From Tunturiibacter empetritectus (GTDB lineage Bacteria > Acidobacteriota > Terriglobia > Terriglobales > Acidobacteriaceae): a stretch of DNA of 64,000 bases. The DNA is taken from positions 372,001-436,000 of the forward strand of contig NZ_JACCCU010000003.1 of the NCBI RefSeq assembly GCF_013410875.1, given 5' to 3'. Positions 2,734 to 26,834 of this stretch are shown here, in pieces. Under the pieces are notes generated by a model. It made no database searches and was not told the origin of the DNA. It saw only the letters and a program-made list of their open reading frames with translations. Each line of letters starts with the position of its first letter. Position 1 is the first letter of the stretch. The translations under genes were made by a program, and so were the position numbers.

Positions 2734-2831
2734 GTCCTGCCGGACGGGCCGCCTGCGCGGCGCGCGGTCACTTCGTGACTTGTATACCTTGTCGTGATTA
2801 GGAAACGATGCGGCCCTCCCGTTGGTCGGAC
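2734..2831 (+). repeat. R1 dispersed structured repeat, copy 1 (single)
   Basis: It starts with GTCCTGCCGGAC (hairpin 1, arms GTCC/GGAC), continues with a variable stem GCCGC/GCGGC, then GTCACTTCGTGAC (hairpin 3) and GTATAC, and ends in CTCCCGTTGGTCGG. It lies between the convergent 3' ends of the TonB receptor and the VOC gene. Confidence 0.9.
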
Positions 2832-2847
2832 GGGGGAGACGGGCTGC

Positions 2848-3222
2848 TTAGTGTTGTGAGAGGGAGAGGGTGTTGCCGTCGGGGTCGGCGAACCAGGCTA
2901 CCTTGGCTGCGCCGCCGGGTGCGGTCCAGACGCCGTCGGGACTTTGCTCGAAGTGGGGATAACGGGTGAACGTGAGGCCTTTGGCGGTGAGGTCGGCTAC
3001 GGACTGGTGGATGTCCTGGACCTCCCAACCGAGGATGGTGAAGGGCGCGGGAGTAAAGTTGCCGACGCGAACGATGCGGATCATGGTGCCGTTGGCTTCC
3101 ATGACTAAGGCGAAGTGGTCGTCGCTGAGGAAGCGCAGGCCGAGGAGGCCCTCGTAGAAGGCGCGGGACTGGGCGGCGTCGCGGGTGGGGATGAAGGCGA
3201 TGATGGGCGTTTGGCCTAGCAT
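2848..3222 (-). CDS. VOC family (glyoxalase/bleomycin-resistance-like) protein
   Basis: A 124-residue single-domain protein. The N-terminal stretch with FIPTRDAAQSRAFYEGLLGL and the C-terminal WFADPDGNTLSLSQH are the two hallmarks of a beta-alpha-beta-beta-beta VOC module. The Asp-Pro-Asp-Gly-Asn turn near the end is typical. A GAGG Shine-Dalgarno lies about 8 bp before the ATG. VOC proteins bind divalent metals and act as isomerases, dioxygenases or drug-binding proteins; the substrate here is unknown. It is transcribed in the same direction as the MscS gene, which lies upstream of it with R1 copy 2 between them. Confidence 0.85.
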   Translation of the reverse strand: MLGQTPIIAFIPTRDAAQSRAFYEGLLGLRFLSDDHFALVMEANGTMIRIVRVGNFTPAPFTILGWEVQDIHQSVADLTAKGLTFTRYPHFEQSPDGVWTAPGGAAKVAWFADPDGNTLSLSQH

Positions 3223-3280
3223 GAGGGACCTCGCTGGTTGGCTAGTTTATAGCTTGTTTGCTGGCTTGGGAAAGGATTCT

Positions 3281-3376
3281 GTCCTGCCGGACGGGCCGCC
3301 TGCGCGGCGCGCGGTCACTTCGTGACTTGTATACCGGTCTTGATGGGGTAGAGGCTTGGGTCCTCCCGCTGGTCGG
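3281..3376 (+). repeat. R1 dispersed structured repeat, copy 2 (single)
   Basis: Nearly identical to copy 1 through the first 50 bp (same GCCGC/GCGGC stem). It overlaps the 3' end of the MscS gene on the minus strand, whose last codons and TGA stop lie inside the element. The distal end reads CTCCCGCTGGTCGG. Confidence 0.9.
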
Positions 3377-4508
3377 ATGGAAGGTTGTTTTCTTCTTGCG
3401 GTTTAGAGGCAAAGCGGGTGGTGGGGAAGGCTTCGGGGTAGTTCTGCTGGATCCAGGCGGTCATCTTTTCGCGGACGAGGCAGCGCAGGTCGAAGTTTTC
3501 GCTGGAGTTGCGGGAACTCATGAGGCAGCGGAGTTCCATGGAGCGGTCGGTGAGGTTAGTGACCTGGAGACCGCAGACCTGTTTGTTCCAGAGCGGCGAG
3601 GGGTGGACGATGGATTCGAGTTGCTGACGGAGGGCTTCGACGGGGATGGAGTAGTCGACGTAGAGGAAGGTGGTGCCCATGATGTCGGAGGACTCGCGGG
3701 TCCAGTTCTGGAAGGAGTTTTCGATGAAGTAACTCAAGGGGACGATAAGGCGGCGGAGGTCCCAGATGCGAATGACGACGTAGGCGGAGTTGATCTCTTC
3801 GATGCGGCCCCACTCGCCCTGAACGACGACGACGTCATCGATGCGGATGGGTTCGGTGAGGGCGATCTGAAGGCCGGCGAGGAAGTTTGCTGCGGTAGAC
3901 TTGGCGGCGGTGGCGAGGATGAGCGAGGCGATGCCGGCGGAGGCGAGCAGGCCGGAGCCGTAGTGCCAGATGCGTGGGTCGTTGAAGGTCCAGAGGAGGG
4001 CGCCAATGTCGATGATGACGACGAAGGCGATGAGCATGCGGCGGAAGAGTTGGAACTGGGTGTGGACGCGGCGGGCCTGAATGTTGTTTTCGGCGTTGAG
4101 GTCGTAGCGCCGCAGCATTACGGATTGGAGGACGTAGATGCAGCCGATGGCAAACCAGCCGAGAGAGGCAACCATCGCCATGATGAGGCCCTGGCGGATG
4201 GTGTCTTCGAGCTTGTCGGAAAGGCCAGGTGCGGCTGGGAGGATGAGAAGGAGGCAGGTGATGAAGAAGATGGCGCGGGCGGGTTTGCCGAGGTAGCGCT
4301 GGAGGCCCCAGCCGAGGCCTTTGCTCTTCTCTTCTTTGCGGCGCAGAAGACGGAACAGGACGTAGTGCACCACGTTTGCGAGTACGATGGCGGCGCAGAA
4401 CAGGAAGATGGCGAAGAACCAGGTGTGGCGGAAGTGCGGGAATGCCTGCGCGAGCAGATTCAGATGCGGTGCAGGAAGGTTGGCCGGGCTGAGCGCGAGT
4501 TGGTTCAA
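3315..4508 (-). CDS. MscS-family mechanosensitive ion channel
   Basis: About 397 residues from a TTG preceded by GGAG at 5-nt spacing. The open frame runs on to an ATG at 4838, but that extension overlaps the hydrolase gene out of frame and looks non-coding. Five hydrophobic segments lie at about residues 28-52, 72-90, 103-123, 153-175 and 184-217. The last is Ala/Gly-rich (AGIASLILATAAKS), matching the pore helix TM3 of MscS. A beta domain follows (IRIDDVVVVQGEWGRIEEI), then the alpha/beta vestibule. Its role is to release solutes on hypo-osmotic shock at the inner membrane. Oddity: the last residues (SDQRE...GIQVTK) are encoded by repeat R1, so the repeat replaced or extended the native C-terminus. 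Translation is probably coupled to the upstream hydrolase. The start is uncertain. Confidence 0.82.
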   Translation of the reverse strand: MNQLALSPANLPAPHLNLLAQAFPHFRHTWFFAIFLFCAAIVLANVVHYVLFRLLRRKEEKSKGLGWGLQRYLGKPARAIFFITCLLLILPAAPGLSDKLEDTIRQGLIMAMVASLGWFAIGCIYVLQSVMLRRYDLNAENNIQARRVHTQFQLFRRMLIAFVVIIDIGALLWTFNDPRIWHYGSGLLASAGIASLILATAAKSTAANFLAGLQIALTEPIRIDDVVVVQGEWGRIEEINSAYVVIRIWDLRRLIVPLSYFIENSFQNWTRESSDIMGTTFLYVDYSIPVEALRQQLESIVHPSPLWNKQVCGLQVTNLTDRSMELRCLMSSRNSSENFDLRCLVREKMTAWIQQNYPEAFPTTRFASKPQEENNLPSDQREDPSLYPIKTGIQVTK

Positions 4509-4590
4509 GGTTGCTCCGTCTACTTCGCTGCTTAGATGCAACGTAGCTGAGAGCAGTTTAATCGCCGGCGGCGTTGCTGGTGTGACAACG

Positions 4591-5502
4591 CTATTTATGT
4601 TGAAGGTAGTCGAGGCCGTCGAGGACAGCTTTTTCGAGGGCGATGCGCTGGTCGGAGTAGGAGTGGTCAGTCGACATGTGGATGGCGGTGATCTCCTGGT
4701 TGCCGGCTTTACGGAGGGCTTCGACGAAGGCGTCGTTGGAGGGTGCGAGGCCGTCGTCGGAGGTGATGACGAGCATGGGGCGTGTGGCGAGTTTTGGCGC
4801 GAGCGCGGGGATGTTCCATGCTGTGGCGTTCGCGGCAACCTCTTTGGCGAGGCTTTCGGGGGTGCAGCCGGCTAGCGGGGCCATGCCCTCTTCGGCGAGG
4901 TGTGAGGCGAGGGCGGCGACGGCTGCGTCTCGCTGATCGGATTTGAGGGATTGGAACTTGTCGACGCCCATATCGGCGGCGGAGATGAGGCCTACGGCTT
5001 TGATGGCGGGATCCTGCGCTGCGACGTAGCGAGCCATAAAGCCGCCCATGCTGTGGCCGACGAGGACGATGAAGGACGGGTCGGTGTGAAGCTTCTTTGC
5101 GTTTGCGGGATCGCGCAGGTAGGCGATGGCGGATTGGGTGTCTTCGATGGAGTGGGTGAAGGAGAAGTTGCCGGGAGAGCCCCAGGAGCCGCGGTAGTCG
5201 AAGTAGACGACGTTCCAGCCGTCGCGGCGGATGGCCTGGGCGAGATCGAGATTCTTCTCGTTGCCGGGGAAGCCGTGGAGGAGGAGGACGACGGGATGTG
5301 GTGCTGGCCCGGGAGCGATGTAGGCGAGGGCGTTGAGGAGCGCGCCGTGGCTGGGGATCTGGAAGGTTTCGAAGGCGGCGGGATTGGTCTTGTCGTGGGC
5401 GGGGTCGGTGGTGATGGCGGTGGGGAGTTGCTGGGCATTGAGAGAGAGGTGCAGTGAGGCGCAGAGAAGAGCGAGAGCGACAAGATGGCGATGAGGGCGC
5501 AT
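4591..5502 (-). CDS. Secreted alpha/beta hydrolase (serine esterase/peptidase-like)
   Basis: A 303-residue protein with an N-terminal signal peptide (MRPHRHLVALALLCASLHLS, cleavage near residue 23). The oxyanion-hole loop HGFPGN lies at 76-81, a nucleophile elbow GHSMGG puts the Ser at 151, a probable acid is in TSDDGLAP near 248, and the His is in TDHSYSDQR near 285. This full catalytic set fits an active periplasmic or exported hydrolase of the S9/dienelactone-hydrolase-like group. The substrate is unknown. The gene is divergent from mnmG (81 bp apart) and its 3' end lies next to or overlaps the MscS start, suggesting a two-gene transcript. Confidence 0.85.
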   Translation of the reverse strand: MRPHRHLVALALLCASLHLSLNAQQLPTAITTDPAHDKTNPAAFETFQIPSHGALLNALAYIAPGPAPHPVVLLLHGFPGNEKNLDLAQAIRRDGWNVVYFDYRGSWGSPGNFSFTHSIEDTQSAIAYLRDPANAKKLHTDPSFIVLVGHSMGGFMARYVAAQDPAIKAVGLISAADMGVDKFQSLKSDQRDAAVAALASHLAEEGMAPLAGCTPESLAKEVAANATAWNIPALAPKLATRPMLVITSDDGLAPSNDAFVEALRKAGNQEITAIHMSTDHSYSDQRIALEKAVLDGLDYLQHK

Positions 5503-5583
5503 GGTTGATTGTTGTTTGGGGAGGGTGATTTGTAAAGCTGCTGCAATTGCAGAGAATCATGCCGTTACGCCTAGAATAGACGG

Positions 5584-7659
5584 GTGAGCTTTTCGGAACA
5601 GTTCGATGTGGTGGTGGTGGGTGCGGGGCACGCTGGCTGCGAGGCGGCGATGGCGGCTGCGCGGATGGGGCTGCGCACTGCTATCTTTACGCTGAATCTG
5701 GATTTGATTGCGCAGATGAGTTGTAACCCTGCGATCGGTGGGATTGCCAAGGGGCATCTAGTGCGGGAGGTGGATGCGCTGGGTGGCGTGATGGGCGAGG
5801 TTGCGGATGCTACGGGGATACAGTTTCGTCTGCTGAATACATCGCGGGGGCCGGCGGTGTGGTCGCCGAGGGCGCAGTGCGATAAGGCGCTGTATCGCGT
5901 GAAGATGCGCGAGGTGCTGGAGGGGCAGAAGAATCTCTTCATCAAGCAGGCTGAGGTGGTGGATCTGATTGTGGAGGACGAGAATTCCGATATCCCACCC
6001 TTCGCAAACAACGCGAAGGATGGGGCACCCGGCGAGTTTTCTCCGAAGCGAGTTGTGCGTGGTTTGAAGTTGCGGGATGGGCGTGTGATTCATGCCGCGG
6101 CGACGATTGTTACGACTGGGACGTTTCTGAATGGGTTGATTCATTGTGGAGAACAGCAGTACACGGCGGGGAGGGGTGGGGAGCCGGCTAGCGTGTTGCT
6201 CGGGGAGGCGTTGAAACGGCTGGGGCTGCGGGAGTGCAGACTGAAGACGGGGACGCCGCCGCGGCTTGATGGCCGCACGATTGACTGGAGTCAGTTTCAG
6301 GAGCAGCCTGGGGATGAAGACCCGACGCCGTTCAGCTTCAGATCAGCGAGTCAGCGAGTTAGCGAGTCAGCGGGGCAGCGGTGGGTTCCGAACCTGCGGC
6401 AGGTCAACTGCCATATCGCGCATACGACGCCGGGGACGCTGCGGCTGATTCGCGATAATGTGCATCGCTCGCCGATGTACACGGGGCAGATCGAGGCGAT
6501 TGGACCTCGGTACTGTCCTTCGATTGAAGACAAGATTGTGCGGTTTCCGGAGAAGACGCGGCACCAGTTTTTTCTGGAGCCGGAGGGGTTGAATACGCAT
6601 GAGGTCTACATCAACGGCATGAGCACAAGCCTGCCGATGGAGATCCAGTCGGCGATGGTGCGGTCGATACCGGGGCTTGAGAGGGCGGAGATGCTGCGGC
6701 CGGGGTATGCGATTGAGTATGACGCGATCGATCCGACGGAGCTGGATCGTACGCTGCGGGTGAAGTCGTTTGCGGGGCTTTATCTGGCTGGGCAGATCAA
6801 TGGGACGAGCGGGTATGAAGAGGCGGCTTGCCAGGGCTTGATGGCGGGGATTAATGCGGCGCTGGCGGTGAAGGCAGCCCTGAGCGGCGAACCAGAGGAT
6901 GGCTTTACGCTGGATCGGACGGAGGCTTACACGGGGATTCTGATCGACGATCTGATCAGTAAGGGTACGAATGAGCCTTACCGGATGTTTACTTCGCGGG
7001 CAGAGTTTCGGCTGCACCTGAGGATCGATAACGCGGACAGCAGGCTGACTCCGCATGGTCGGCGGCTGGGACTGATCGATGATGCGGCGTGGGCGGAGTA
7101 CGAGGCGAAGCAGGCTCGGGCGGATGCGTTTGAGAGGCTGTTGGGTTCGGCTCGGGTGCGGGCGGAGGAGTTGCCGGTTGCGCTTCGGGAGAGGCTGGAT
7201 GGGGACGCGGCTGGGATTAGCGGGCAGACGTTTGCGCAGCTTTTGAAGCGTCCGGAGGTGCCGGTGGAGGAGATTGCGCCGGTGCTGCGGGAGAGGCTGC
7301 GGGATGGGGATGAGGTGCTGGGCGGTTGGGTGGCGGCGATGGATGCTGCGGGCGATGCGAGGTTGCCGGCGTGGGTTCGGAATGAGATGAAGACGGTGGA
7401 GACGGAGATCAAGTACTCGGGGTATCTGGACCAGCAGCGGCGCTCGATGGAGAAGATGCGGAGGGCGGAGAAGCGGGCGATTCCGGGGTGGTTCGATTAC
7501 TCGACGGTGAGCGGGCTCTCGAGCGAGATGAAGGAGATTCTTTTGCGGGTGCGGCCGCAGACGATTGGGCAGGCAAGCCGGATTGCTGGGGTTACGCCTG
7601 CTGCGGTTAGTTTGATTCATGTTTATATCGAGATTCAGGGTAGGGCTCGGGTGGCTTAA
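5584..7659 (+). CDS. mnmG: tRNA uridine-5-carboxymethylaminomethyl modification enzyme MnmG (GidA)
   Basis: A 691-residue FAD protein, longer than the usual ~630. With MnmE it installs cmnm5 at wobble U34 of tRNAs. The FAD motif [10 protein letters not shown] is at 13-22, followed by [62 protein letters not shown] and [16 protein letters not shown] are classic GidA signatures. The C-terminal helical MnmE/tRNA-binding domain is present. The start is a GTG at 5584. Two extra stretches account for the length: residues about 136-158, encoded by a hairpin repeat (R4) at 5993-6034, and about 253-264, encoded by an octamer repeat (6343-6374). Both fall in probable surface loops, so the protein is probably active. 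Confidence 0.96.
5993..6034 (+). repeat. R4 hairpin repeat inserted in frame in mnmG
   Basis: The core is CCTTCGC, a 7-nt loop, GCGAAGG, followed by ATGGGGCACCCG. The same GAAG(G)ATGGGGCACCCG block occurs at 18931-18946 inside the glycosyltransferase gene. E. coli MnmG has a shorter loop at this position (family knowledge). Confidence 0.7.
6343..6374 (+). repeat. Octamer tandem repeat within mnmG
   Basis: About four imperfect copies of TCAGCGAG/TTAGCGAG in a row. They encode the loop around [11 protein letters not shown], between the conserved PFSF and [10 protein letters not shown] segments. The 8-bp unit is not a multiple of three, so only three-unit changes keep the frame. Confidence 0.7.
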
Positions 7660-7664
7660 GACTT

Positions 7665-7761
7665 GTCCTGCCGGACGGGCCCACTGCGCGTGGGGCGGTC
7701 ACTTCGTGACTTGTGTACCTTGTTGCGGCAAGTGTAGTGCGTTGGTCCTCGCGATGCTCGG
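7665..7761 (+). repeat. R1 dispersed structured repeat, copy 3 (single, decayed 3' end)
   Basis: Begins 6 bp after the mnmG stop. The variable stem is CCCAC/GTGGG; hairpin 3 is intact; the palindrome reads GTGTAC rather than GTATAC. The distal GTTGGTC is followed by non-consensus sequence. Confidence 0.85.
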
Positions 7762-7822
7762 AAGGAAGATGTAACCGTGGGTGCGGTTTTGGCGTCCAAG
7801 CTTGTGTGGATTGGAGAAGGCG

Positions 7823-8521
7823 ATGACGGCTGGGTTGAAGACGGGGTTGATCGTGTTAGGGCTTGTGGTTGTTGCGTTTATTCTTTTGGGAGGAGGAAAA
7901 AGAATGGTGATGGGGGCAGAGAGAAAAGAGCCGATTCCGGCTCCTGCGATGGATGAGCCGCATGTTGCGGCAACGCATGAGACTGCGGTGTTTGCGGGTG
8001 GCTGTTTCTGGGGCGTGCAGACGGTGTTTCAGCGGGTGAAAGGGGTTACGGCTACTACTGCGGGTTATTCGGGTGGAAGCGCGTCTACAGCTACTTATGA
8101 TCAGGTGTCGTCGGAGGGCACTCGGCATGCGGAGTCGGTGAAGATTGTGTTTGATCCGGCGAAGGTTAGTTATGGGACGCTGCTGCGGATCTTCTTTTCG
8201 GTGGTGCATGATCCTACGCAGTTGAACCGGCAGGGGCCGGATGTAGGGACTTCTTATCGGTCGGTGATCTTTTACACTTCGCCGGAGCAGGAGAAGGTGG
8301 CTAAGGCCTATATCTCTCAGCTGGATGCGGCGCATGTGTTTGGAAAGCCGATTGTGACGGAGGTTACGCCTCTGAAGGCCTTCTATGATGGGGAGGACTA
8401 TCACCAGGACTATGCGGAGAAGAATCCCAACAATCCGTATATTCAGGTCTGCGATGTGCCGAAGATGGCGGCTTTGAAGCAGCAGTTTCCAGATCTTTTT
8501 CAGGATTACAAGCACAAATAA
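7823..8521 (+). CDS. msrA: Peptide methionine-S-sulfoxide reductase MsrA, membrane-anchored
   Basis: 232 residues from an ATG preceded by GGAGAAGG; an upstream in-frame ATG at 7781 lacks a ribosome site. The catalytic Cys61 is in FAGGCFWGVQ. The conserved HDPTQLNRQGPDVGTSYRSVIFY and YHQDYAEKNPNNPYI segments complete the MsrA fold, and a later Cys (YIQVCDVP) may be the resolving residue. It reduces Met-S-sulfoxide using thioredoxin-like donors. A single hydrophobic helix at residues 7-23 suggests the catalytic domain is tethered in the periplasm, protecting envelope proteins. Cytosolic E. coli MsrA lacks such an anchor. Confidence 0.93.
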   Translation: MTAGLKTGLIVLGLVVVAFILLGGGKRMVMGAERKEPIPAPAMDEPHVAATHETAVFAGGCFWGVQTVFQRVKGVTATTAGYSGGSASTATYDQVSSEGTRHAESVKIVFDPAKVSYGTLLRIFFSVVHDPTQLNRQGPDVGTSYRSVIFYTSPEQEKVAKAYISQLDAAHVFGKPIVTEVTPLKAFYDGEDYHQDYAEKNPNNPYIQVCDVPKMAALKQQFPDLFQDYKHK

Positions 8522-8659
8522 TTTCGGCTGGTGGGACTGGGTTAGGGACCTGTTTTTGCTGGGGTTTTTGCGAAATAGTGGTGCCTGAACGTGGTTTTTT
8601 GTGTGGCTGGATGTGGTGGAATGTGTGGTGAACGTGGTGTCGTTGCACCACACATTCTG

Positions 8660-8935
8660 GCCGCTAAGAATACGCCAGGGTTTCGGGATTTATTTTGGAT
8701 GGCGGTTCGGGCGAACTGGTGGCGTTCGGGCGAAGATGCGGGGGGCTTGACGGATACCGTGCATCGGCTCGCTGCAACAGAGAGATGTGGCCGCAATCCA
8801 CTACGTCACGCGTTGAGGCTGCGTGACTTCGGTCGAGATGACGGGGATTGGGGTGGGGATAGAAGAACGAACAAGGCAAAGGACGAAATGCGGGGATCCT
8901 TCACTCCGTTCAGGATGACGACTTCAAAAAAAAGT
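8660..8935 (+). repeat. Long direct repeat (R2-containing), left copy flanking the DUF5076 gene
   Basis: It shares with 9424-9692 the ordered blocks CGCTAAGAA.../CTGCTAAAG..., GCCAGG(G)TTTTCGGG-like, CTTGACGGATACCG, GAGAGATG(T/C)GG(C/T)CGCAATCC, CTTCGGTCGAGATGACG, AAGGACGAAAT(G/A)CGGGGATCC and CACTCCGTTCAGGATGAC. The copies are imperfect, so the duplication is not recent. Confidence 0.85.
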
Positions 8936-9039
8936 GGCGGCCTTACGGGGTAATACAGCCAGGGCCAGGATGACGACTTCAAAAGATGGTGGCGGCCTTA
9001 GGGGGCAATACCAGCCAGGGTCAGGATGACTTCAAAAAG
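8911..9039 (+). repeat. 55-56 bp tandem duplication
   Basis: Units at 8911-8965 and 8966-9021 each begin CAGGATGACGACTTCAAAA and end GCCAGGG(C/T). A truncated third unit follows at 9022-9039. The array extends the right edge of the long direct repeat. Confidence 0.85.
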
Positions 9040-9084
9040 GGCTGGGGATCTGGGCGGGGATGGGTTTCACGTAGAGAGTGCGGG

Positions 9085-9384: not shown

Positions 9385-9878
9385 GAAGCTTCTCTTTTCT
9401 TTTTGCTATTCGGTTAGCTTTCCGGCTGCTAAAGATGTGCCAGGTTTTCGGGGCTAATTTGGCCTAGGTGGCTGGCAAAGGACGAAATGCGGGGGTCTTG
9501 ACGGATACCGCAGAGTGTATCGGTTCGCTGCGACTGAGAGATGCGGTCGCAATCCGCTTCGCGACAGACGGTGTGACTGTCTGCCGCTTCGGTCGAGATG
9601 ACGATGTTTGTTTGGGTTTGGACTGGGGCATAAGAGCGAACAACGGCAAGGACGAAATACGGGGATCCTTCACTCCGTTCAGGATGACAACTTTTAGTTG
9701 TGAGATCGGAGAGCTTGCTTCGCGCTTCGTATTCATCAAACTCTGGGATGTACTTGTCTGTAGTTGTCAGGTTACAGCTCATCTGTGAATTAACCCTTTG
9801 GTGTGTGGGAAACCCGTTGATAACGTGAGGAAAGCGCTGGTTGCAACGGCCCTTGCGACAGCGGAGAATAGAGCCATT
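9385..9878. other. Gene-free interval with the right direct-repeat copy and dnaB leader
   Basis: 9424-9692 is repeat sequence. The remaining ~190 bp before dnaB show no gene and no clear hairpin; the dnaB promoter presumably lies here. Confidence 0.6.
9424..9692 (+). repeat. Long direct repeat (R2-containing), right copy
   Basis: Partner of 8660-8935. It contains the R2 hairpin GGATCC..CACTCCGTTC..AGGATGAC at 9663-9687. It also carries an extra inverted piece, CAGACGGTGTGACTGTCTG, not shared with the left copy. Confidence 0.85.
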
Positions 9879-11246: not shown

Positions 11247-11265
11247 GGCGGGTACTAGGCTCTGG

Positions 11266-11349
11266 GTCCTGCCGGACGGGCCCGCTGCGCGCGGCGCGAT
11301 CACTCCGTGATGGGTATACCGCTTCGCGTGGTGCTCCCGTTGGTCGCAC
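11266..11349 (+). repeat. R1 dispersed structured repeat, copy 4 (single, compensatory hairpin 3)
   Basis: The variable stem is CCGC/GCGG. Hairpin 3 reads ATCACTCCGTGAT instead of GTCACTTCGTGAC: the outer G-C pair became A-T on both sides. It lies between dnaB and the aldo/keto reductase gene. Confidence 0.88.
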
Positions 11350-11370
11350 GTACAAAGTCGAGGAGTCATC

Positions 11371-12315: not shown

Positions 12316-12341
12316 AAGCCAAGTAACACCTGGAGCAGACT

Positions 12342-12725: not shown

Positions 12726-12763
12726 CGACGCTGAGGGACAGCTGCTTGTTTCGGACTATTAAA

Positions 12764-12834
12764 CTGCGCCCTGCGCGGGCGGCGGTCACTTCGTGACTTG
12801 TATACCCCTTCGGTTGGCGCTCCCGTTGGTCGCG
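12764..12834 (+). repeat. R1 repeat, copy 5 (5' truncated)
   Basis: It lacks hairpin 1 and starts at TGCGCCCTGCGCGGGCGG (stem CGCCC/GGGCG). Hairpin 3, GTATAC and the distal CTCCCGTTGGTCGCG are intact. It sits between convergent genes (NTF2-like and aldo/keto reductase). Confidence 0.85.
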
Positions 12835-13890: not shown

Positions 13891-14556
13891 TTGACCCCAC
13901 GTCCTCAGATGCTGTTGGAGCCGCGTAAATCGCCGGTGCAGGCTCGTTCGGCTGCGAGCGTGGATGCGATTCTGGAGGCGACCATTCAGGTTTTGTTGAG
14001 CGTGGGGAAGGAACGGCTGACGACGACGAAGGTTGCGATGCGCGCTGGGGTTTCGGTTGGGACGTTGTATCAGTATTTTCCGAATAAGAGTGCGTTGCTG
14101 CAGGCGGCTTTGCTACAACATCTGAACGGGGTGTCGACGGCGCTGGAGCAGGTGTGCCGGGAGCAGAAGGGGAAGCCGCTTAAGGAGATGGTTGCGGCGG
14201 TGATCAACGCGTTTCTCGAGGCCAAGATGATGGATCCGAAGACGAGCGTGGCGCTGCATGCGGTGAGCTCGGATGTGGATGGGGCGAAGATTGCGAAGCA
14301 GAAGGCGTTGCGGTCGCTGAAGGCGATTGCGGGGATGCTGGGGACGTCGAGCGAGTCGCTGACGAAGGAGCCGCAGCTGGTGGCGTCGATGCTGGTGGCG
14401 GCGATGGTGGGGGTGAGCCGGAGACTGCTGGAGTCGGATGCGCCGGAGAAGCAGTTTGAAAGCATGCGGGGGGAACTGGTGTTCTTTGCTTGCTCGTATA
14501 TGGAGGCTTGTTCGGTGCGGGAAGTGCGCCCTGCGCGGGCGGCGGTCACTTCGTGA
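13891..14556 (+). CDS. TetR-family transcriptional regulator with a repeat-encoded C-terminus
   Basis: A 221-residue protein starting at a TTG. The HTH spans about residues 18-65: SVDAILEATIQVLLSVGKERLTTTKVAMRAGVSVGTLYQYFPNKSALL. The rest is the all-helical ligand-binding/dimer domain. The last residues (PARAAVTS) come from R1 copy 6, whose GTGAC hairpin supplies the TGA stop. The 112-bp divergent gap to the YdbC-like reductase is the likely target. A CTGACA...TGTCAG palindrome before the downstream VOC gene is a second possible operator. The inducer is unknown. Confidence 0.88.
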   Translation: MTPRPQMLLEPRKSPVQARSAASVDAILEATIQVLLSVGKERLTTTKVAMRAGVSVGTLYQYFPNKSALLQAALLQHLNGVSTALEQVCREQKGKPLKEMVAAVINAFLEAKMMDPKTSVALHAVSSDVDGAKIAKQKALRSLKAIAGMLGTSSESLTKEPQLVASMLVAAMVGVSRRLLESDAPEKQFESMRGELVFFACSYMEACSVREVRPARAAVTS

Positions 14557-14690
14557 CTTGTATACCCCTTCGGTTGGCGCTCCCGATGGTCGCGAGGGAA
14601 GATTGTGCCGACCAACGGGAGGAGTACGCGAAGCTCTAAAAAGGCGTGTGAACGCCCGCACTCCGCGCAGGAGGCCCGTCCGGCAGGACA
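14525..14690. repeat. R1 repeat, copy 6 (head-to-head pair, long palindrome)
   Basis: The left half begins at the variable stem CGCCC/GGGCG (no hairpin 1) and runs through GTCACTTCGTGAC and CTCCCGATGGTCG. The right half is inverted: CCGACCAACGGGAG, a diverged middle, the stem read on the minus strand as CTCC/GGAG, and CCCGTCCGGCAGGAC. The left half overlaps the 3' end of the TetR gene. Confidence 0.88.
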
Positions 14691-15178: not shown

Positions 15179-15260
15179 GTCCTGCCGGACGGGCTCCCTA
15201 CGCGGGAGGCGGTCACTTCGTGACTTGTATATCCCTTCGGTTGGCGCTCCCGTTGGTCGC
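15179..15260 (+). repeat. R1 repeat, copy 7 (single)
   Basis: Hairpin 1 intact; variable stem CTCCC/GGGAG with loop TACGC; hairpin 3 intact; the palindrome is GTATAT. Distal end CTCCCGTTGGTCGCG. Confidence 0.9.
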
Positions 15261-16882: not shown

Positions 16883-16892
16883 GGGGGGGGGG
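16883..16892 (+). promoter_or_regulatory. G10 homopolymer at ribosome-binding position
   Basis: AA followed by ten G residues and a single C immediately before the GTG start at 16894. It occupies the Shine-Dalgarno position. A run this long is prone to slippage and could alter spacing or strength of translation initiation. Confidence 0.6.
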
Positions 16893-16893
16893 C

Positions 16894-17181: not shown

Positions 17182-17219
17182 CGTTCTGTAAGACCCCTCT
17201 TTAAAATCAGGAACTCTTA

Positions 17220-17439
17220 GTCCTGCCGGACGGGCGCCCTTCGCGGGCGGCGGTCACTTCGTGACTTGTATACCCCTTCGGTTGGCGCTCCCGTTGGTCG
17301 CGAAGGGAGATTATGCCGACCAACGGGAGGACCACGCAAAGCTTTAAAGAGACGTGCGAACGCCCGCGGAATCGGGGTCCCCACAAACAGGTCTTTCGTT
17401 TGTGGGGTGACTAAGCGCAGGAGGCCCGTCCGGCAGGAC
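17220..17439. repeat. R1 repeat, copy 8 (head-to-head pair, interrupted)
   Basis: The left half is complete (GTCCTGCCGGAC, stem CGCCC/GGGCG with loop TTCGC, hairpin 3, CTCCCGTTGGTCGCG). The right half is inverted from CCGACCAACGGGAGG to CCCGTCCGGCAGGAC, but its variable stem is split by a ~40-bp hairpin sequence (17371-17413). It is flanked by convergent 3' ends of the 95-residue gene and the glycosyltransferase gene. Confidence 0.92.
17379..17407. repeat. Hairpin nested inside R1 copy 8
   Basis: Perfect 10-bp arms CCCCACAAAC and GTTTGTGGGG around a 9-nt loop. The related locus at 14525-14690 lacks it: there, GAACGCCCGC runs on directly to CTCCGCGCAGGAGGCCC. Confidence 0.85.
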
Positions 17440-17446
17440 ATAGTCT

Positions 17447-19516: not shown

Positions 19517-19631
19517 GGTGGCGAGATGTTGGGTTTAGGTGAGTCTATCAATGCGGTGTTGAGGTGGGAGGGGTTTGCTAGAGTCGCAAGGCTATGATGA
19601 GAAGCGTGTTGTTTGAGCGAGGGCATCTGGG

Positions 19632-20744: not shown

Positions 20745-20776
20745 CTGCTGCCTAAGAATGCTTGTTGCAAGAATGT

Positions 20777-20874
20777 GTCCTGCCGGACGGGCTCCCTGCG
20801 CGGGAGGCGGTCACTTCGTGACTTGTATACCTTTTCTGGGTGAGGGATCGGCTCAGGGCCTCCCGTTGGTCGGC
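20777..20874 (+). repeat. R1 repeat, copy 9 (single)
   Basis: Hairpin 1; variable stem CTCCC/GGGAG with loop TGCGC; hairpin 3; GTATAC; distal CTCCCGTTGGTCGG. It fills the gap between the convergent Rieske and MBL genes, ending 2 bp from the MBL stop codon. Confidence 0.92.
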
Positions 20875-20876
20875 GG

Positions 20877-21581
20877 TTACGATTTGGCTGTGCTGGCGAT
20901 TGCCTTGCGGAGGGTGGGGATGCCTCCGGGTCTGACGGAGCCGTGGCCGCAGGCGAAGCGCTCGATGGGGTAGGTGAGCAGTTTGTTGGCGCTGGCGAGT
21001 GCGATGGATTTATCCCAGGTGGCGAGGTTCGGCAGAGGGAAGTACCAGGGGGCGAAGCCGCTAACGGTGAGGTGGCCCATGGCGATGAGGGCGTCGCCGG
21101 CGTAGAGGGTGCCGTCGCGCTGGTCGAGGAAGGCGAGGTGGCCAGGGATGTGGCCGGGGGTTTCAATGGCGAGAAGGGAGCCGTAGAGTTCGCCTTCGGT
21201 GACGAGACGCGTAGGGCGGGCGTCGATGCCGGGGAGGCCACCGCGAATCTCTTCGTTGGGTTCGCCGGGCTGAGGAGACTTGTTGGGGGGCTTTTGCAGA
21301 AGCGGAAGGCTGCGGGCGTTCGAGGTAAACTCTATTTGTGTGGCGCCTAGCTTTGCCAGGAGGGCATCTACGGAGCCGACATGGTCTACGTGGGCATGAG
21401 TGATCAGGATGCGACGGATGGGTGCGCCCAGGGCTTTCGCAGCGGCGAGAATATCGTCGGCGGAGTTGGCGAGGTTGGCGTCGATCAGGGTGAAGCCGTC
21501 GGTCTCGCGGACGAGATAGCAGTTGATGAGGCCGAAGCGGGTGAGTTGATGGGCGTTGGCGGTAATCGGTGTGGTTTTCAT
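20877..21581 (-). CDS. MBL-fold metallo-hydrolase
   Basis: 234 residues from the ATG at 21581. The open frame runs on upstream to 21782, but that part has no domain character. The metal motif THAHVDHVG (His62, His64, Asp66, His67), then ETPGHIPGHLAF, GDAL, and a final ACGHG His complete a binuclear zinc site. The size and the plain lactamase_B domain fit glyoxalase-II-like or quorum-lactonase-like hydrolases. The activity is not predictable. It is convergent with the Rieske gene. Confidence 0.87.
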   Translation of the reverse strand: MKTTPITANAHQLTRFGLINCYLVRETDGFTLIDANLANSADDILAAAKALGAPIRRILITHAHVDHVGSVDALLAKLGATQIEFTSNARSLPLLQKPPNKSPQPGEPNEEIRGGLPGIDARPTRLVTEGELYGSLLAIETPGHIPGHLAFLDQRDGTLYAGDALIAMGHLTVSGFAPWYFPLPNLATWDKSIALASANKLLTYPIERFACGHGSVRPGGIPTLRKAIASTAKS

Positions 21582-21919
21582 AATGGACGCTAAGGAAGAG
21601 AGTACCTGCGAGGATGTTGAGTTGCCCGGAAGAGACCGAACAGACTGAGATTGATGCATGTATGGCGGCTGCGATAGGGTTGGTTCCGTTCTAATGCTCG
21701 TACCAAGTGATGGTCTGGTCTGTTGGGTTGAGACTGATTGGATTGATGGATTGGTTGGGCTGACATAGTATGTTTCGCACACTCCCTACGGCCTCTTGAA
21801 AGCAGGTTGTTGTCGTGAATGCGATCTGAGCGTCTGATTTCCAGTGCTCTCATCGATGCCTCTTATAGCAGATGTAGTGCAGCTTTATGACGGGACAGTC
21901 TGTTGTGAATGGAGAGGTG
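21582..21919. other. Intergenic region between divergent MBL and M23 genes
   Basis: About 340 bp with no gene. It includes a run of GATTG/GGATTG-type short repeats near 21728-21756. Promoters for both flanking genes presumably lie here, but no convincing -35/-10 pair was picked. Confidence 0.5.
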
Positions 21920-23110
21920 ATGCGAGATATTTCAAGACGGTCTTTCGCTTTGTCGATTACGGTTTCGTTGATCGGTTTTTTCACGATCTATGCAGGGTTG
22001 GGATGGAGTGAGGTAGCGCAGCAGATGACGCCGCTGCTGATTGCGGTTCATGATGCGCCGGTGCCTTTCAAAGGTTCGGACGGCCAGGTGCACCTGGTCT
22101 ATGAGGTGTGGCTGGCGAATATCTCGAGTGGCGAGGCGGATATTCAAGATGTTGAGGTGATCGGTGACGGTGGGGTTCTGCAGAGGCTGGACGCAGCGGC
22201 GGTCTCTCGTCGTCTTCAGCCTGCGGGTTTGCGCGAAGCTTCCGGGGTGCTTGCCCGGGGCACGCAGTCGATACTTTTTTTGAACGTCATTCTTCCGAAT
22301 GGTTCTCCAATTCCGAAGCAGCTTCTGCATCGGATCAAGGCGCACTACAGCGCTGCGCCTCCGGGACAACAGGAGATCACCGAGACTGGCGGCGCAACGA
22401 CGCCGGACCTTCAGCCGGTTGCGCAGATCGGTGCGCCTCTGCGTGGGGATGGTTACGTCTCTGCTGATTCGTGTTGCGATGCGACGCGCCACACCCGGGC
22501 TGCGTTACCTATCAATGGGCGCGTCTATGTGGCTCAACGTTACGCTGTCGATTGGGAGCAGTTGGATGCAAACGGCCGTATCTATTCAGGTCCAAGAGAA
22601 AAACTTGAGAGCTATACGATCTTCGGAAAGCCTGTCTATGCGGTTGCAGATGGGGTGGTAGCCGTTGCGATTACGGGCCTGCCTGAACAGACGCCGGGGA
22701 AGTATCCCACGAATATTCCGATTGAAGACGCGGATGGGAACGCGATCATTGAGGATATCGGGGGGCATCATTTTGCCTGTTACGCGCACATGCAGTCGGC
22801 GAGCATCAATCTTCATCGCGGCGATCGAGTGAAGCGCGGACAGATCATTGGCCTGGTGGGGAACTCGGGTAATTCTGTAGCACCGCATCTGCACTTTCAT
22901 GTGATGAGTTCGGAGTTGTCGCTTGCTTCGAACGGGCTGCCATATCAAATTGATGCCTTCAAAGTGACGGGTGCGACGCCCGGCACGGAGGCTTTCGACG
23001 AAGCAGAGGCCAACGGGACACCACTTGCAATTAATGTGTTCTCTCCTCCGCACCAGATAGAGAATTCGCTGCCGCTCGATCAACTGATTATCTCGTTGTC
23101 GCCTCGGTAG
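21920..23110 (+). CDS. M23-family (LytM) metallopeptidase-like exported protein
   Basis: 396 residues from the ATG at 21920, preceded by GGAG with 5-nt spacing (an in-frame ATG at 21887 has none). The N-terminal signal or anchor (ISRRSFALSITVSLIGFFTIYAGLG) has a twin-Arg-like start. A beta-rich N-terminal domain is followed by a LytM domain at about residues 215-350: ADGVVAVAIT, CYAHMQ, VKRGQIIGLVGNSGNS, PHLHFHVM. The HLHFH pair gives zinc ligands. The first LytM ligand (usual HxGxD) is not clear at RYAVDWE, where Asp is present but no His, so the enzyme may be non-catalytic and act as an amidase activator or binding protein. Confidence 0.85.
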   Translation: MRDISRRSFALSITVSLIGFFTIYAGLGWSEVAQQMTPLLIAVHDAPVPFKGSDGQVHLVYEVWLANISSGEADIQDVEVIGDGGVLQRLDAAAVSRRLQPAGLREASGVLARGTQSILFLNVILPNGSPIPKQLLHRIKAHYSAAPPGQQEITETGGATTPDLQPVAQIGAPLRGDGYVSADSCCDATRHTRAALPINGRVYVAQRYAVDWEQLDANGRIYSGPREKLESYTIFGKPVYAVADGVVAVAITGLPEQTPGKYPTNIPIEDADGNAIIEDIGGHHFACYAHMQSASINLHRGDRVKRGQIIGLVGNSGNSVAPHLHFHVMSSELSLASNGLPYQIDAFKVTGATPGTEAFDEAEANGTPLAINVFSPPHQIENSLPLDQLIISLSPR

Positions 23111-23130
23111 CGCGCTTCGATGCTTCGAGG

Positions 23131-23182
23131 GCTGCGGCTTCGAGGCAGATCATAGCACGCTTCATGCGCTGGTTGGTGGTGT
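23131..23182 (-). pseudogene. Fragment of GH57/DUF3536 gene
   Basis: 45 of 52 bases match 24266-24317 in the intact gene downstream. On the minus strand it encodes TTNQRMKRAMICLEAAA against the intact TTGQRMKRAMIRLEAAA. It lies just upstream of the FkbM-like gene start. It is a relic of a duplicated or recombined copy. Confidence 0.8.
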
Positions 23183-23192
23183 TTAGAATGTA

Positions 23193-24002
23193 GTGAAACA
23201 GCCCATTCGTATCGAGGAACTATCGTTGCTTGGCTATGTCTCAAAAGCTTTTAGACGTCACCTGAACTTTCGCCGTGTCGTAGGCCTTTATCGGCGTCGC
23301 TTGTCACGGAAGATCTTTGCAAAGTGCGGCGGCATTGTGCAGTATGGGCCGTTTGCCGGGATGCAATGGTTAGACAACCCTCGCTGGGGCCGATCGGAGC
23401 AGGGCGTTATGATTCTCGGCCTGTACGAGCAGGAGGTCCTCGAGAACCTTGCAGGGGCCCCTGCTCACTTTCGAGTGTTTGTCGATGTCGGCGCTGCGGA
23501 CGGATACTACGCTGTCGGTCTTCTTCATAGTGGCAAAGTCGATCGCTCCGTAGCCTTCGAATCCATTCCCGAGTGCCGCACGGCCATCAGTCGGCTGGCT
23601 GATAAAAACGGCGTCTTGGACAAGATAACGATTCTCGGCACGGCATCGGATCGTTTCGTTGATACTCTTCGCACTCACAAGATCAACTCGCACGAGACGA
23701 TGTTTCTTATCGATATTGAAGGCGCGGAGTTCAAAGTACTTACCGAGGAAGTTTTTGCCTTCCTGAAAGATTCGATGATCATCGTCGAAACTCATGCCCA
23801 TATCTATGCCGATCCCCAAGGGGAGATGGAGCGTCTCGTGGAGAGAGCTTCTTTGACGCATCGCGTAACAACCTGGTATCCAGGAGCTCGCAATCCCTGG
23901 ACGATCAAGGAGCTGGAAGAGTTCACGGAGATAGATCGATGGATTCTATGCTCTGAAGGGCGTGTCGAGGTCCAACAATGGCTACGCTTTGATCCTTTGT
24001 AA
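23193..24002 (+). CDS. FkbM-like SAM-dependent methyltransferase
   Basis: A 269-residue protein starting at a GTG. The SAM-binding motif I is VDVGAADGYYAVG (about residues 96-108); the acidic motif LIDIEGAEFKVL (about 171-182) is typical of FkbM-type enzymes; IVETHAHIY follows. A basic N-terminus (RRHLNFRRVVGLYRRRLSRK) could contact a glycan or membrane surface. Such enzymes O-methylate sugars or polyketides. Base composition looks somewhat less GC-rich than its neighbours, and a GH57 gene fragment lies directly upstream, so the gene may have arrived by insertion next to GH57. Confidence 0.8.
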   Translation: MKQPIRIEELSLLGYVSKAFRRHLNFRRVVGLYRRRLSRKIFAKCGGIVQYGPFAGMQWLDNPRWGRSEQGVMILGLYEQEVLENLAGAPAHFRVFVDVGAADGYYAVGLLHSGKVDRSVAFESIPECRTAISRLADKNGVLDKITILGTASDRFVDTLRTHKINSHETMFLIDIEGAEFKVLTEEVFAFLKDSMIIVETHAHIYADPQGEMERLVERASLTHRVTTWYPGARNPWTIKELEEFTEIDRWILCSEGRVEVQQWLRFDPL

Positions 24003-24024
24003 GGTCACTCCCGAGTACTGAGAG

Positions 24025-26613
24025 CTAGAAGGTGCTGACGCCTTCTTCGATGACGAGCTGATCGACCTTGATGTTCATGGTCTCGCCCAGTTTTTTGAAG
24101 CCTTCCTTCCACTCGTCGGTCCAGTAGTTGGTGTCGCTGCGACGGAGGAGGTCGTTCCAGATGTTCTGGGCCTGCCAGATGTTTACCTCGAAGGGCATCT
24201 TGTGGGTGGCCTCTGCGACTACGATGGCTGCGGCGAGGGCGTCGGCGGCTTGCGGATCGCCTGAAGCTGCGGCTTCGAGGCGGATCATGGCGCGCTTCAT
24301 GCGCTGTCCTGTGGTGTAGCTGAGGAGTTGCGTGTCGAGAGGGATTTGATCGGCTTCGGCGCGGCTGATGAGTGCTTCGATTTCGGCGTTGTCGAAGGTT
24401 TCGGACTCGATGGCCTGACGGAGGCTGGCGTTGATGGCGAATCGGGCTGCGGTGGCGAGGGCGGGCGGGGCGGTCATGCCGGACTCGGTGAGGAAGTGCA
24501 TGAGGGAGGCGTGGTCTTCGTAGATCTTGCGGAGGGAGTGCTCCATCTCGGAGACGGTCTGGTTGAGGATGGTGCTGAGGATGCGATGCTGCTCGTCGGC
24601 GAAGAGGGAGGTTAGCGAGTAGGCGGTTTCGCCGAAGAAGCGGTCGATGAGGCGGATGACCTCGGGGAGGTTGGCGCGACGGATGGCGGTGCTGATGTCG
24701 GTGGAGAAGGTGGCGAAGGCTTCGACCTCGGCTGGGTTGTTGGAGTTGTAGGCTTTGACGGCGGCGGATAGGTTCTGGTCGCCGAGGTGGAGTACGGCGA
24801 AGCAGAGCTCTTCACTCTCCTCGGTGATGCGGGAGTAGAGGAGCGCGCGGCCGAGGGCGACGCGGCCGCGGCCGGAGTTGAAGACCTCCTGCGATTCGCG
24901 GTGGACGTCGAAGCAGAAGAGCTCGCCGTGCTCTGGATAGGCGCGGAAGATGGAGCTGATGGCGTAGTGAGCACCGACCTGTTCGAGGCCGATCTTCATG
25001 CTCTTGACGTAGCGGCGGTAGACTTCGGCGCCGTCGCCCATCTCGGGGACGTTGCTTTTTGCGCGGGCGAGGCGGGTAAGGAACTCGGCTTCGAGGGCGA
25101 CGCCGGGAGGGCCGAAGAGTTTGGCGGCGAGCTGGAGGACACGTCCGGCGTAGGCGATGATCTGGACAGTTTCGATGCCGGAGATCTCGTCGAAGAACCA
25201 GCCGCAGCTGGTGTACATGAGCTGGGTGTGGCGTTCGAGCTCCATGAGTTCGAGTGCGCTGACGCGCTCGTCTTCGGTGAGGTGGCGGATGGCGTGGTCG
25301 GCGAAGAAGCGGATGATGGAGGCAGGGGAGCGGTCGAGGACGACGTGGATATAGGCTTCGCGGGCGACCCAGAGATCTTTGAAGAGGGATTGGGAGAGCT
25401 TTTCGGCGAGCGGTGCGGTGGCGTCGCGGAGGTAGTCGAGGGATTCGCGCAGGGGGGCGCGCCACTCTTGGTTCCAGCCGGCCTTGCCACCGTTGCAGCC
25501 GCAGTTGGAGCGCCAGCGTTCGACGCCGTGGGCGCAGGACCAGGAGGTGTCTTCGGCGACTTCTGCCTCCCACTTGGGCGGGAATTTTTCGAGAAACTCG
25601 CCGTAGTTGGTGAGTTTGGCCTGTGCGCCTTCCTCGATCCAGTGCATGGCATAGGAGAGGGCCATCTCGCCGTGTTTGTGGTGGTGGCCGTAGCTTTCGC
25701 CGTCGGTGGCGACGTGGGAGAGCTGGGCGATCTCGGGGTCGCCGGGGGAGGCTGGGTGGAAGCCTCCGAGGAGGCGGCTGCCGAAGTTTTCTCCGCTGTT
25801 GAGTAGGCCTTCAAAGGCGATGGCGCGGGAGCCGGGGCCATCGTAGAAGAAGACGGCGATGCTGCGGCCTTCGTCGAGTTTTACAAGGTAGGGGTGGGTC
25901 GGGTTGACGTTGGCGCTGGGCGTCTGGGTCCAGGGCTCTTCGGCTGGAGCGGCTGCTGCGGCGACGGGGTCGAGGTTCGGTTTGGAGGTAGTGCCAGCGG
26001 GCGGCTCGAGGCGGCGGACACGGGCGCATTGAACGGGGGCGAGGATGGTGAATTTAATGCCCTCCTGCGCCATGAGGTCGAGCACATTGCGATTGACGGC
26101 GGTCTCGGCGAGCCACATGCCTTCGGGTTTGCGGCCGAAGCGGGATTCGAAGTCGGCGATGCCCCAGCGGATCTGGGTGAGGGCGTCGCGGCGGCTGGCG
26201 AGGGGCATGATGATGTGGTTATAGACCTGGGCGACGGCGGATCCATGGCCGCTGTAGTGCTGGGCGCTGACCTTGTCGGCATCGACGATCATGCGGTAGG
26301 CGCGGGGGGCTTTCTGCTGGAGCCAGCTGAGGAGGGTGGGGCCGAAGTTGAAGCTCATCCGGGCGTAGTTGTTCATGATGCGGATGATCTCGTTCTGCTT
26401 GTTGGTGATGCGGGAGGCGCCGTTGGGGGCGTAGCACTCGGCGGTGATGCGGTCGTTCCAGTCGTGATAGGGGGCGGCGGAGTCCTGGACCTCGACGGTT
26501 TCGAGCCAGGGGTTTTCGCGGGGTGGCTGGTAAAAGTGGCCGTGGATGCAGACGAAGCGGGGGGCTTCGACGGCGGCGGGTTTGCTTTTTGTGGATGTCT
26601 TCGACTTTGCCAT
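24025..26613 (-). CDS. GH57-family / DUF3536 glycoside hydrolase-like protein
   Basis: 862 residues from an ATG with AAGGAT upstream; further upstream codons lie in R1 sequence. The N-terminal FVCIHGHFYQPPRENPWLE is the GH57 signature of alpha-amylase/4-alpha-glucanotransferase-like enzymes. GMWLAETAVN and VATDGESYGHHHKHGE hold candidate nucleophile Glu and acid Asp residues. The C-terminal ~450 residues are DUF3536. A cytosolic role in alpha-glucan (glycogen) turnover or branching is likely by family. No other glycogen gene is adjacent. Confidence 0.9.
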   Translation of the reverse strand: MAKSKTSTKSKPAAVEAPRFVCIHGHFYQPPRENPWLETVEVQDSAAPYHDWNDRITAECYAPNGASRITNKQNEIIRIMNNYARMSFNFGPTLLSWLQQKAPRAYRMIVDADKVSAQHYSGHGSAVAQVYNHIIMPLASRRDALTQIRWGIADFESRFGRKPEGMWLAETAVNRNVLDLMAQEGIKFTILAPVQCARVRRLEPPAGTTSKPNLDPVAAAAAPAEEPWTQTPSANVNPTHPYLVKLDEGRSIAVFFYDGPGSRAIAFEGLLNSGENFGSRLLGGFHPASPGDPEIAQLSHVATDGESYGHHHKHGEMALSYAMHWIEEGAQAKLTNYGEFLEKFPPKWEAEVAEDTSWSCAHGVERWRSNCGCNGGKAGWNQEWRAPLRESLDYLRDATAPLAEKLSQSLFKDLWVAREAYIHVVLDRSPASIIRFFADHAIRHLTEDERVSALELMELERHTQLMYTSCGWFFDEISGIETVQIIAYAGRVLQLAAKLFGPPGVALEAEFLTRLARAKSNVPEMGDGAEVYRRYVKSMKIGLEQVGAHYAISSIFRAYPEHGELFCFDVHRESQEVFNSGRGRVALGRALLYSRITEESEELCFAVLHLGDQNLSAAVKAYNSNNPAEVEAFATFSTDISTAIRRANLPEVIRLIDRFFGETAYSLTSLFADEQHRILSTILNQTVSEMEHSLRKIYEDHASLMHFLTESGMTAPPALATAARFAINASLRQAIESETFDNAEIEALISRAEADQIPLDTQLLSYTTGQRMKRAMIRLEAAASGDPQAADALAAAIVVAEATHKMPFEVNIWQAQNIWNDLLRRSDTNYWTDEWKEGFKKLGETMNIKVDQLVIEEGVSTF

Positions 26614-26623
26614 TGATCCTTTT

Positions 26624-26834
26624 GTCCTGCCGGACGGGCCCACTGCGCGTGGGGCGGTCACTTCGTGACGCGTATACCTTTCATGGACGATACAAAATGC
26701 AAGGGCCTCCCGTTGGTCGGCGCGAGAGATTTATTTCCGACCAACGGGAGGAGCTATGTTGCTCAGTTTACCGGGACAAGGTATACGCGTCACCAAGTGA
26801 CCGCCCTCCGCGAAGGAGGCTCGTCCGGCAGGAC
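26624..26834. repeat. R1 repeat, copy 10 (complete head-to-head pair)
   Basis: A 211-bp imperfect palindrome with both hairpin-1 ends intact (GTCCTGCCGGAC ... GTCCGGCAGGAC). Left variable stem CCCAC/GTGGG; right, read on the minus strand, CTCC/GGAG. Both halves carry GTCAC/GTGAC and GTATAC, and both central CTCCCGTTGGTCGG ends face each other. It lies just downstream of the alkA-like stop and just upstream of the GH57 start. Confidence 0.93.

Follow-up and report, generated by a model that had tools for sequence, protein, structure and literature searches.

When the stems of a repeated sequence covary, this is commonly regarded as proving that an RNA fold is under selection. The 64,000-nucleotide stretch of Tunturiibacter empetritectus analysed here (positions 372001-436000 of contig C3, hereafter the window, in a genome of 5.07 Mb in five contigs) contains a dispersed repeat, R1, for which this step was indeed taken: a sequence-only reading had concluded from compensatory changes in one variable stem, H2, that the fold is under selection. 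Does the covariation of R1 reveal selection on a fold, or another way of keeping two arms matched? The copies of R1 in this and related genomes show that H2 exists as about a dozen complementary alleles, which are shared between species and exchanged as a block, and that its arms stay complementary because both travel together in that block. R1 itself is probably a non-autonomous dispersed DNA element of one Acidobacteriota genus, similar to the repetitive extragenic palindromes (REPs), the bacterial interspersed mosaic elements (BIMEs) and the inverted REP doublets known as REPINs; no mover was found for it.

Architecture and pairing of the R1 arms

An R1 arm is a string of four to five mini-hairpins over some 80-100 bases, in the order head (GTCCTGCCGGACGGG), H2, a nearly constant H3 (GTCAC-TTC-GTGAC), TGTATACC, a module and a tail hairpin, and its ends read (T)GTCCTGCCGGAC. 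The head hairpin (GTCC/GGAC, loop TGCC) is nearly invariant, so that its fold has no covariation behind it. The module measures 13 or so bases in the short form, with a hairpin H4 such as CCTTCGG or GCTTCGC, and 26-31 bases in the long form, where it is variable with a recognizable skeleton. In a T form, H3 is replaced by GGCGTTCGCACGCC with TTTTT, a terminator-like hairpin. The tail, CTCCCGTTGGTCGG, is a small hairpin as well, with covarying columns in the long form (87-93) and the short form (68-82), and the earlier description of three hairpins plus a conserved end has to be extended accordingly.

The profile search gave 380 hits, corresponding to 365 distinct arms (188 in this genome and 177 in relatives), of which the 335 with H2 in a fixed register (five bases, loop TNCGC, five bases) were used for the covariation counts and the 30 out of register were dropped. 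The inner four H2 pairs are complete in 291 of the 335 arms; in 2000 shuffles of the 3′ arms this number averaged 80 and never exceeded 108. The outermost pair is formed in only 210. Of the inner H2 cells, 95.1% are paired in register and 34-61% once the partner is slid by 1-3 bases; the corresponding figures for H3 are 98.3% and 12-59% (256 arms). Twelve strictly Watson-Crick alleles of the inner four pairs account for 284 arms, the other 51 showing 41 different combinations.

A blind scan of all column pairs against shuffled columns placed the H2 pairs at the top in all three forms. Also above the null were, in the long form, the tail pair 87-93 (C-G in 107 and G-C in 14 of 124) and H3 35-45, and, in the short form, H4 56-62 (C-G in 61 and G-C in 49 of 113), the tail pair 68-82 and H3 34-46. 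In the 40 arms of the T form, no pairs other than two of H2 exceeded the null as pairs, the tail pair remaining below it, and some non-pairing column pairs inside the head also beat the shuffles owing to decayed or headless copies. These nulls, shuffles and slid partners, do not weight the copies by relatedness as R-scape does. Judged by them, without a kinship model, neither of the outcomes that had been named as fatal to a paired fold, a lack of covariation or stems failing in most copies, was observed.

Within the window, the ten plus-strand copies lie where the sequence-only reading had placed them, and three minus-strand arms, with heads at 14689, 17439 and 26834, are added (Table 1). The inner four H2 pairs form in 12 of these 13 arms and the outermost pair in eight, the single failure being the minus arm at 17439, where a nested hairpin insertion displaces the 3′ arm. 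The statement that the variable arms always pair was therefore too strong, and the constant start attributed to every copy is present in eight of the ten plus-strand ones, the H2 stems at 12767 and 14527 lacking it.

Exchange of H2 as a block between strains and species

The 15-mer of the constant start has 192 exact copies in this genome, against none for the pattern read backwards, and G081, another strain of the species, has 185. Among the 76 arms with an orthologue in the latter, 47 are identical over 128 bases. H2 differs between the strains in eight of 66 in-register arms, a comparison in which two arms were set aside where the form had changed within the arm pair concerned, and in six of the eight it differs on both sides at once. 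Overall, the strains differ at 33 of 660 H2 bases versus 7 of 2046 bases of the constant part, counts in which the bases of a block are not independent. In five of the six both-side switches the inner four positions are paired in both strains, once with a T-G pair, and in four of the six the new 15-base H2 cassette is found elsewhere among the sampled arms of this genome. A hybrid H2 at C3:322627, in which the 3′ side alone was exchanged and the stem is broken, is as expected if an exchange ends inside the loop.

The comparison with other species points in the same direction. Out of 184 arms tried, 83 could be placed and 53 had a same-strand arm at the orthologous position (mean flank identity 87.7%). 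Of the 46 in register, ten carry an identical H2; both sides differ in 31 (24 of them with both versions paired) and one side in five. Equal alleles at orthologous sites are thus about as frequent as random pairing would give (7.1 expected, P 0.13), and yet R1 is there in both species: the site lasts, the H2 cassette does not.

The conclusion from compensatory change to a selected fold consequently goes too far, since H2 turns over as blocks with both arms together (6 of 8 changes between strains, 31 of 36 between species). The observation of covariation was good, and the weak step is the inference from it to selection. Some purifying pressure on pairing is nevertheless likely on top of block exchange, because mismatched hybrid H2s are rare and mostly unique. 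As the many R1 copies from close and distant relatives show, the exchange of whole stems is another way of keeping two arms matched.

DNA or RNA

RNA stems usually tolerate G-U pairs. In R1, 2029 of 2071 cells of H2, H3 and H4 (long and short forms, in-register arms only) are Watson-Crick, with seven G-T, nine C-A and 26 other combinations. Since C-A reads as G-T when the opposite strand is considered, neither strand is preferred, and wobble pairs are nearly absent. When arms were folded alone as RNA, four out of five were no more stable than their shuffles (z 0.18, 0.96, 0.29 and 0.10), the exception being a T arm (z -2.29). Two inverted pairs folded as single-stranded DNA beat their shuffles (z -2.83 and -13.53), as inverted repeats must. 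A search of Rfam 15 over positions 2000-28000 of the window gave no structured RNA over the gathering score, with a single sub-threshold match (Bp1_684, 27.3 bits versus 44, at 26559-26667 on the minus strand). DNA is therefore likelier than RNA, given that G-T is as rare as A-C and that most single arms fold no better than shuffles. Intrinsic termination was considered as a common function of R1 and rejected, since terminator-like sites are no more common behind R1-bearing genes (40 of 145) than behind others (126 of 469).

Two larger folds were also rejected. A stem closing head on tail as a cloverleaf had been suggested by the folds of the arms at 26624 and 14608-14689, but tail columns 87 and 93 swap to each other's complement while the head stays invariant, which would break such a stem. 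Pairing of the long-form variable segment with a central spacer, suggested by eye at C3:243681, did not hold in 121 elements, where the complementarity of the segment to the following 30 bases was 4.07 versus 4.42 after permutation; on the direct strand there was a small excess of similarity to the 100 bases that follow (5.68 versus 5.40, standard deviation 0.09). This segment, between TATACC and the tail, is highly variable in sequence and tightly limited to 26-31 bases, with a skeleton like TTGTCTTGGCGGGATGAGCTGCATTGGTC (examples at 2789-2815 and 20832-20859 of the window), and the analysis found nothing with which it pairs.

Genomic context

The surroundings of R1 were studied in 1.256 Mb, 25% of the genome, made up of positions 1-456000 of C3 and forty 20-kb pieces. 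As 40 of these 41 pieces had been picked for holding R1 or a gene of a REP-associated tyrosine transposase (RAYT), the contiguous C3 stretch, not chosen for R1 beyond the window, serves as a check. Genes were predicted with our own codon-usage finder (1042 genes, 81% coding). The arms occur either singly (72 of 109 units placed) or in tail-to-tail inverted pairs with the heads outward (37 of 109). None of the units lies within a predicted gene, some overlapping gene ends, and they occupy 46 convergent, 57 tandem and 6 divergent spacers out of 115, 384 and 154 available (at least 90 bases). In C3, R1 is present in 10 of 47 convergent spacers, in 18 of 163 tandem ones and in none of the 62 divergent ones (at least 60 bases). 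In tandem spacers, 51 of 57 units are closer to the stop codon than to the next start (median 11 versus 74 bases). Single units in such spacers show both orientations, 16 with the head and 22 with the tail to the stop. This stop-side placement is the pattern of REPs, and it is compatible with counter-selection of insertions at other places as well as with a role at 3′ ends.

Some regularities of the pairs were also noted. They mostly unite different arm types, a C-ended with a G-ended tail in 25 of 37 cases, with both tails G-ended in six, both C-ended in none and the remaining six undetermined. Equal H2 alleles within a pair are not avoided (5 of 29 versus 6.2 expected). Among the 11 informative S/T and S/L pairs in tandem spacers, nine have the S arm on the side of the stop.

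Relation to known repeat families

Mosaics of short palindromes located behind stop codons and avoiding promoters are typical of the E. coli BIMEs and REPs, for which gene conversion was once proposed, and R1 resembles them in this position, differing in sequence, length, number of hairpins and the absence of a GTAG tag. The BOX elements of Streptococcus pneumoniae are likewise modular, exchangeable intergenic blocks without a transposase of their own, the difference being that their modules are unrelated to those of R1 and that R1 has interchangeable alleles of a paired stem. By the broad definition of REPs and BIMEs as high-copy palindromic intergenic units, R1 belongs with them, with 192 copies and no unit inside a gene. 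The first reading of the window, which had proposed a dispersed element similar in design to REPs and BIMEs, longer than an ordinary REP and with a variable stem that pairs, is thus supported in this respect.

As described in the accessible part of Bertels and Rainey 2011 (PMC3116915), REPINs are inverted REP doublets mobilised by RAYTs in Pseudomonas and other bacteria, with frequent compensatory changes in their hairpins. Compared with that account, R1 is similar in its high-copy intergenic inverted pairs (37 of the 109 units are doublets with conserved outer ends), in its hairpin-forming variable middle with compensatory changes, in its patchy presence among relatives and in the singles found beside doublets. 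It differs in that its arms are multi-hairpin strings of 80-100 bases rather than a single REP, in that single arms are common, well conserved and not obvious wrecks, in that its pairs join two different arm types, and in that no RAYT is flanked by R1; the GTAG/GTGG foot beside the palindrome is also absent, the ends of R1 having the sequence given above. The CGTC-tagged REPs, according to the portion of Di Nocera 2013 (PMC3733652) at hand, have no dedicated transposase, are mostly dimers, often heterodimers, and carry at one end a tag that may read TGTC or CCTC; the same portion mentions a distinct acidobacterial group of tyrosine transposases flanked by long terminal repeats. R1 shares with these REPs, so described, the lack of a dedicated transposase, and a T precedes its head (giving TGTC) in 198 of 261 intact arms, a resemblance to the CGTC-type tag only. 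The single stem of 8-9 bp starting with A-T residues, with a loop of 4-5 nt, that follows the tag in those REPs is not found in R1, whose first stem is the head hairpin described above. For Granulicella aggregans, the part of PMC12306157 available gives no more than palindrome counts. No paper on R1 was found in a literature search, the coverage of which left out most subscription journals. R1 is best filed as a DNA element of the REP/BIME type, which on the tests made is neither a RAYT-linked REPIN nor a known RNA. In a phylum for which little has been written on such repeats, it represents a further REP-like family, one built of several hairpins and with no RAYT linked to it.

Distribution and mobility

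The exact 15-mer is present in 21 of 49 genomes of one genus, with 1 to 248 copies each, and in none of 32 genomes outside it; a longer R1 pattern was met, among the matches listed, in Edaphobacter, Granulicella, Terriglobus and acidobacterial bins. All 28 sites compared are common to both strains of the species, and two further pairs of G081 correspond to other sequence in this genome. Of 120 units from relatives, 36 were placeable, and ten of these have no R1 at that place here. Clean empty sites make up six rows at five places, with 2-32 bases here versus 97-226 in the relative. Units thus come or go cleanly, without any insertion dated to the recent past. In one such case, a whole inverted pair of a relative (L167:3259-3451) is cleanly absent here, the relative having extra sequence in the left flank.

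Genes of the RAYT type (PF01797) gave 112 matches in 40 of the 49 genomes of the genus, and genomes with 163, 56 and 52 copies of R1 have no Y1_Tnp match. One of these genes (L031, 1462-1923) has the same 55-base direct repeat on both sides, apparently a separate REP family of its genome. A gene family carried by R1 was also sought and rejected: the largest recurrent family has three of its five members beside R1 and is not transposase-like, its C-terminus, as judged by eye, presumably being that of a short-chain dehydrogenase. No autonomous partner element, of the kind that a MITE would match in its terminal inverted repeats, was met among the proteins beside R1 in the 1.256 Mb.

Origin and maintenance of R1

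In the explanation that we consider probable, that of a non-autonomous dispersed DNA element, the spreading unit would be a DNA hairpin that an enzyme processes as a single strand or a cruciform. Insertions would survive mainly just behind stop codons, where they would break neither genes nor promoters. Later, existing copies would be rewritten where they stand, either through short-patch gene conversion or because a new insertion lands in an old copy, and the H2 arms would remain matched because they are copied together. Several results weigh against this explanation. No recent transposition was seen between the two strains, as the two differing sites are not clean empty sites. All six both-side H2 switches fall among the 13 arms with flanks less than 97% identical, and none among the 55 with flanks of at least 97%; these stretches may therefore have come in from a diverged strain, and some switches may be imports instead of conversions within the genome. 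None of the 40 RAYT places scanned (of the 112), among them every one of the 17 that occur in the eight R1-rich genomes (at least 20 copies) with RAYT-type genes, shows an R1-like hit at E<=10 within about 1.5 kb, so that the transposase gene flanked by R1 that had been anticipated did not appear there; and no recurrent transposase-like family stands beside R1, the proteins having been compared within the 1.256 Mb only. A more specific version, which we regard as possible and rather doubtful, is that R1 evolves in concert in place, H2 being rewritten as an intact paired cassette from the pool of about a dozen alleles by a dedicated process on single-stranded DNA that would read the string of hairpins, be it a nuclease other than a RAYT or conversion coupled to replication, while the sites persist across species. 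If so, the covarying stems would signal cassette exchange and not selection on RNA, and the length-limited segment of 26-31 nt would be a second such cassette.

Three other explanations are less attractive. An RNA element at the 3′ ends of messenger RNAs, which would end transcription, hold up 3′ exonucleases or delay ribosomes at the stop, with stems covarying through selection on the RNA fold, would agree with the stop-adjacent position, the terminator-like hairpin of the T form with its TTTTT, and the S arm facing the stop; in E. coli, REPs within 15 nt of the stop lower translation, as stated in the part of PMC12306157 seen. We think it unlikely, however, as terminator-like sites are not enriched at R1 3′ ends, single units lie in both orientations, G-T is no commoner than C-A and only the T arm folds better than shuffles. 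An ordinary RAYT-mobilised REPIN, its transposase lost or acting in trans without flanking R1 copies, appears quite improbable, and RAYT mobilisation of R1 was not supported when examined: inverted pairs whose outer ends are conserved and whose middle varies follow the plan of REPINs, for which the accessible text of PMC3116915 reports compensatory changes, and RAYT-type genes are widespread in the genus, but R1 was absent around all the RAYT places scanned, some R1-rich genomes lack a Y1_Tnp match, and the L031 gene has a 55-bp repeat of its own. Very improbable, finally, is a purely mutational origin of the covariation, in which template switching in the hairpin at replication copies one arm from the other without any selection. 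Such switching has been proposed as a source of compensatory change in RNA hairpins generally (PMC8794818, in the part consulted), and it predicts the near-perfect Watson-Crick pairing with few intermediates seen here. It would, however, leave one arm unchanged, whereas both arms changed in most H2 differences between strains and between species, and the new allele is often already common elsewhere. The block changes largely refute template switching as the main current process, although it may have made the pool of H2 alleles.

R1 arms and other repeats in the window

The 13 arms lie within positions 2734-26834, and the profile search found none in 26835-64000. With up to two mismatches, GTCCTGCCGGAC has 39 matches in the window versus 7.2 expected, each exact copy being counted on both strands because the motif is palindrome-like, and CTCCCGTTGGTCGG has 12 versus 0.67.

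Table 1. R1 arms of the window, with their coordinates, strand and surroundings.
Feature	Coordinates	Strand	Remarks
Single arm, long form, H2 CCGCC/GGCGC, 27-nt variable segment	2734..2829	+	Head starts 12 bases past the stop of a gene on the plus strand that ends at 2721
Single arm, long form, H2 CCGCC/GGCGC	3281..3376	+	Overlaps a gene on the minus strand (3315-4508) at its predicted 3′ end
Single arm, long form, H2 CCCAC/GTGGG	7665..7761	+	Tail CTCGCGATGCTCGG, the variant in which the tail hairpin is paired
Single arm, short form, H2 CCCGC/GCGGC, H3 ATCAC/GTGAT	11266..11347	+	
Arm without constant start, short form, H2 CGCCC/GGGCG	12767..12833	+	
Arm without constant start, short form	14527..14593	+	Plus arm of inverted pair with 14608-14689
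T-form arm, H3 replaced by GGCGTTCACACGCC then TTTTT	14608..14689	-	Minus arm of pair with 14527-14593
Single arm, short form, H2 CTCCC/GGGAG	15179..15260	+	2 bases past a stop codon
Short-form arm, H2 CGCCC/GGGCG	17220..17301	+	Plus arm of inverted pair between convergent genes
T-form arm, H2 broken by nested hairpin insertion (~17370-17414)	17316..17439	-	Minus arm of pair with 17220-17301
Single arm, long form, H2 CTCCC/GGGAG	20777..20873	+	Between convergent genes
Long-form arm, H2 CCCAC/GTGGG	26624..26720	+	Plus arm of inverted pair
Long-form arm, H2 CCTCC/GGAGG	26737..26834	-	Minus arm; pair with 26624..26720 folds as one long single-stranded DNA hairpin, z -13.5

The insertion in the minus arm 17316-17439 is an example of a repeat nested in a repeat, a hairpin of 40-50 bases of the CACCCCACAAACG...CGTTTGTGGGG type inserted in H2 of some R1 arms, and it was also seen at three other loci (L120, L122 and L137). 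A second dispersed repeat, of the GGGATCCTTCACTCCGTTCAGGATGAC type, occurs in the window at 8886-8922, 9655-9691 and 52818-52854. Some 44 kb present in G081 are absent here, with the junction at 9670-9692, inside one of these copies, as if the segment had been lost or gained by recombination between copies of the GGGATCCTTCACTCCGTTCAGGATGAC type.

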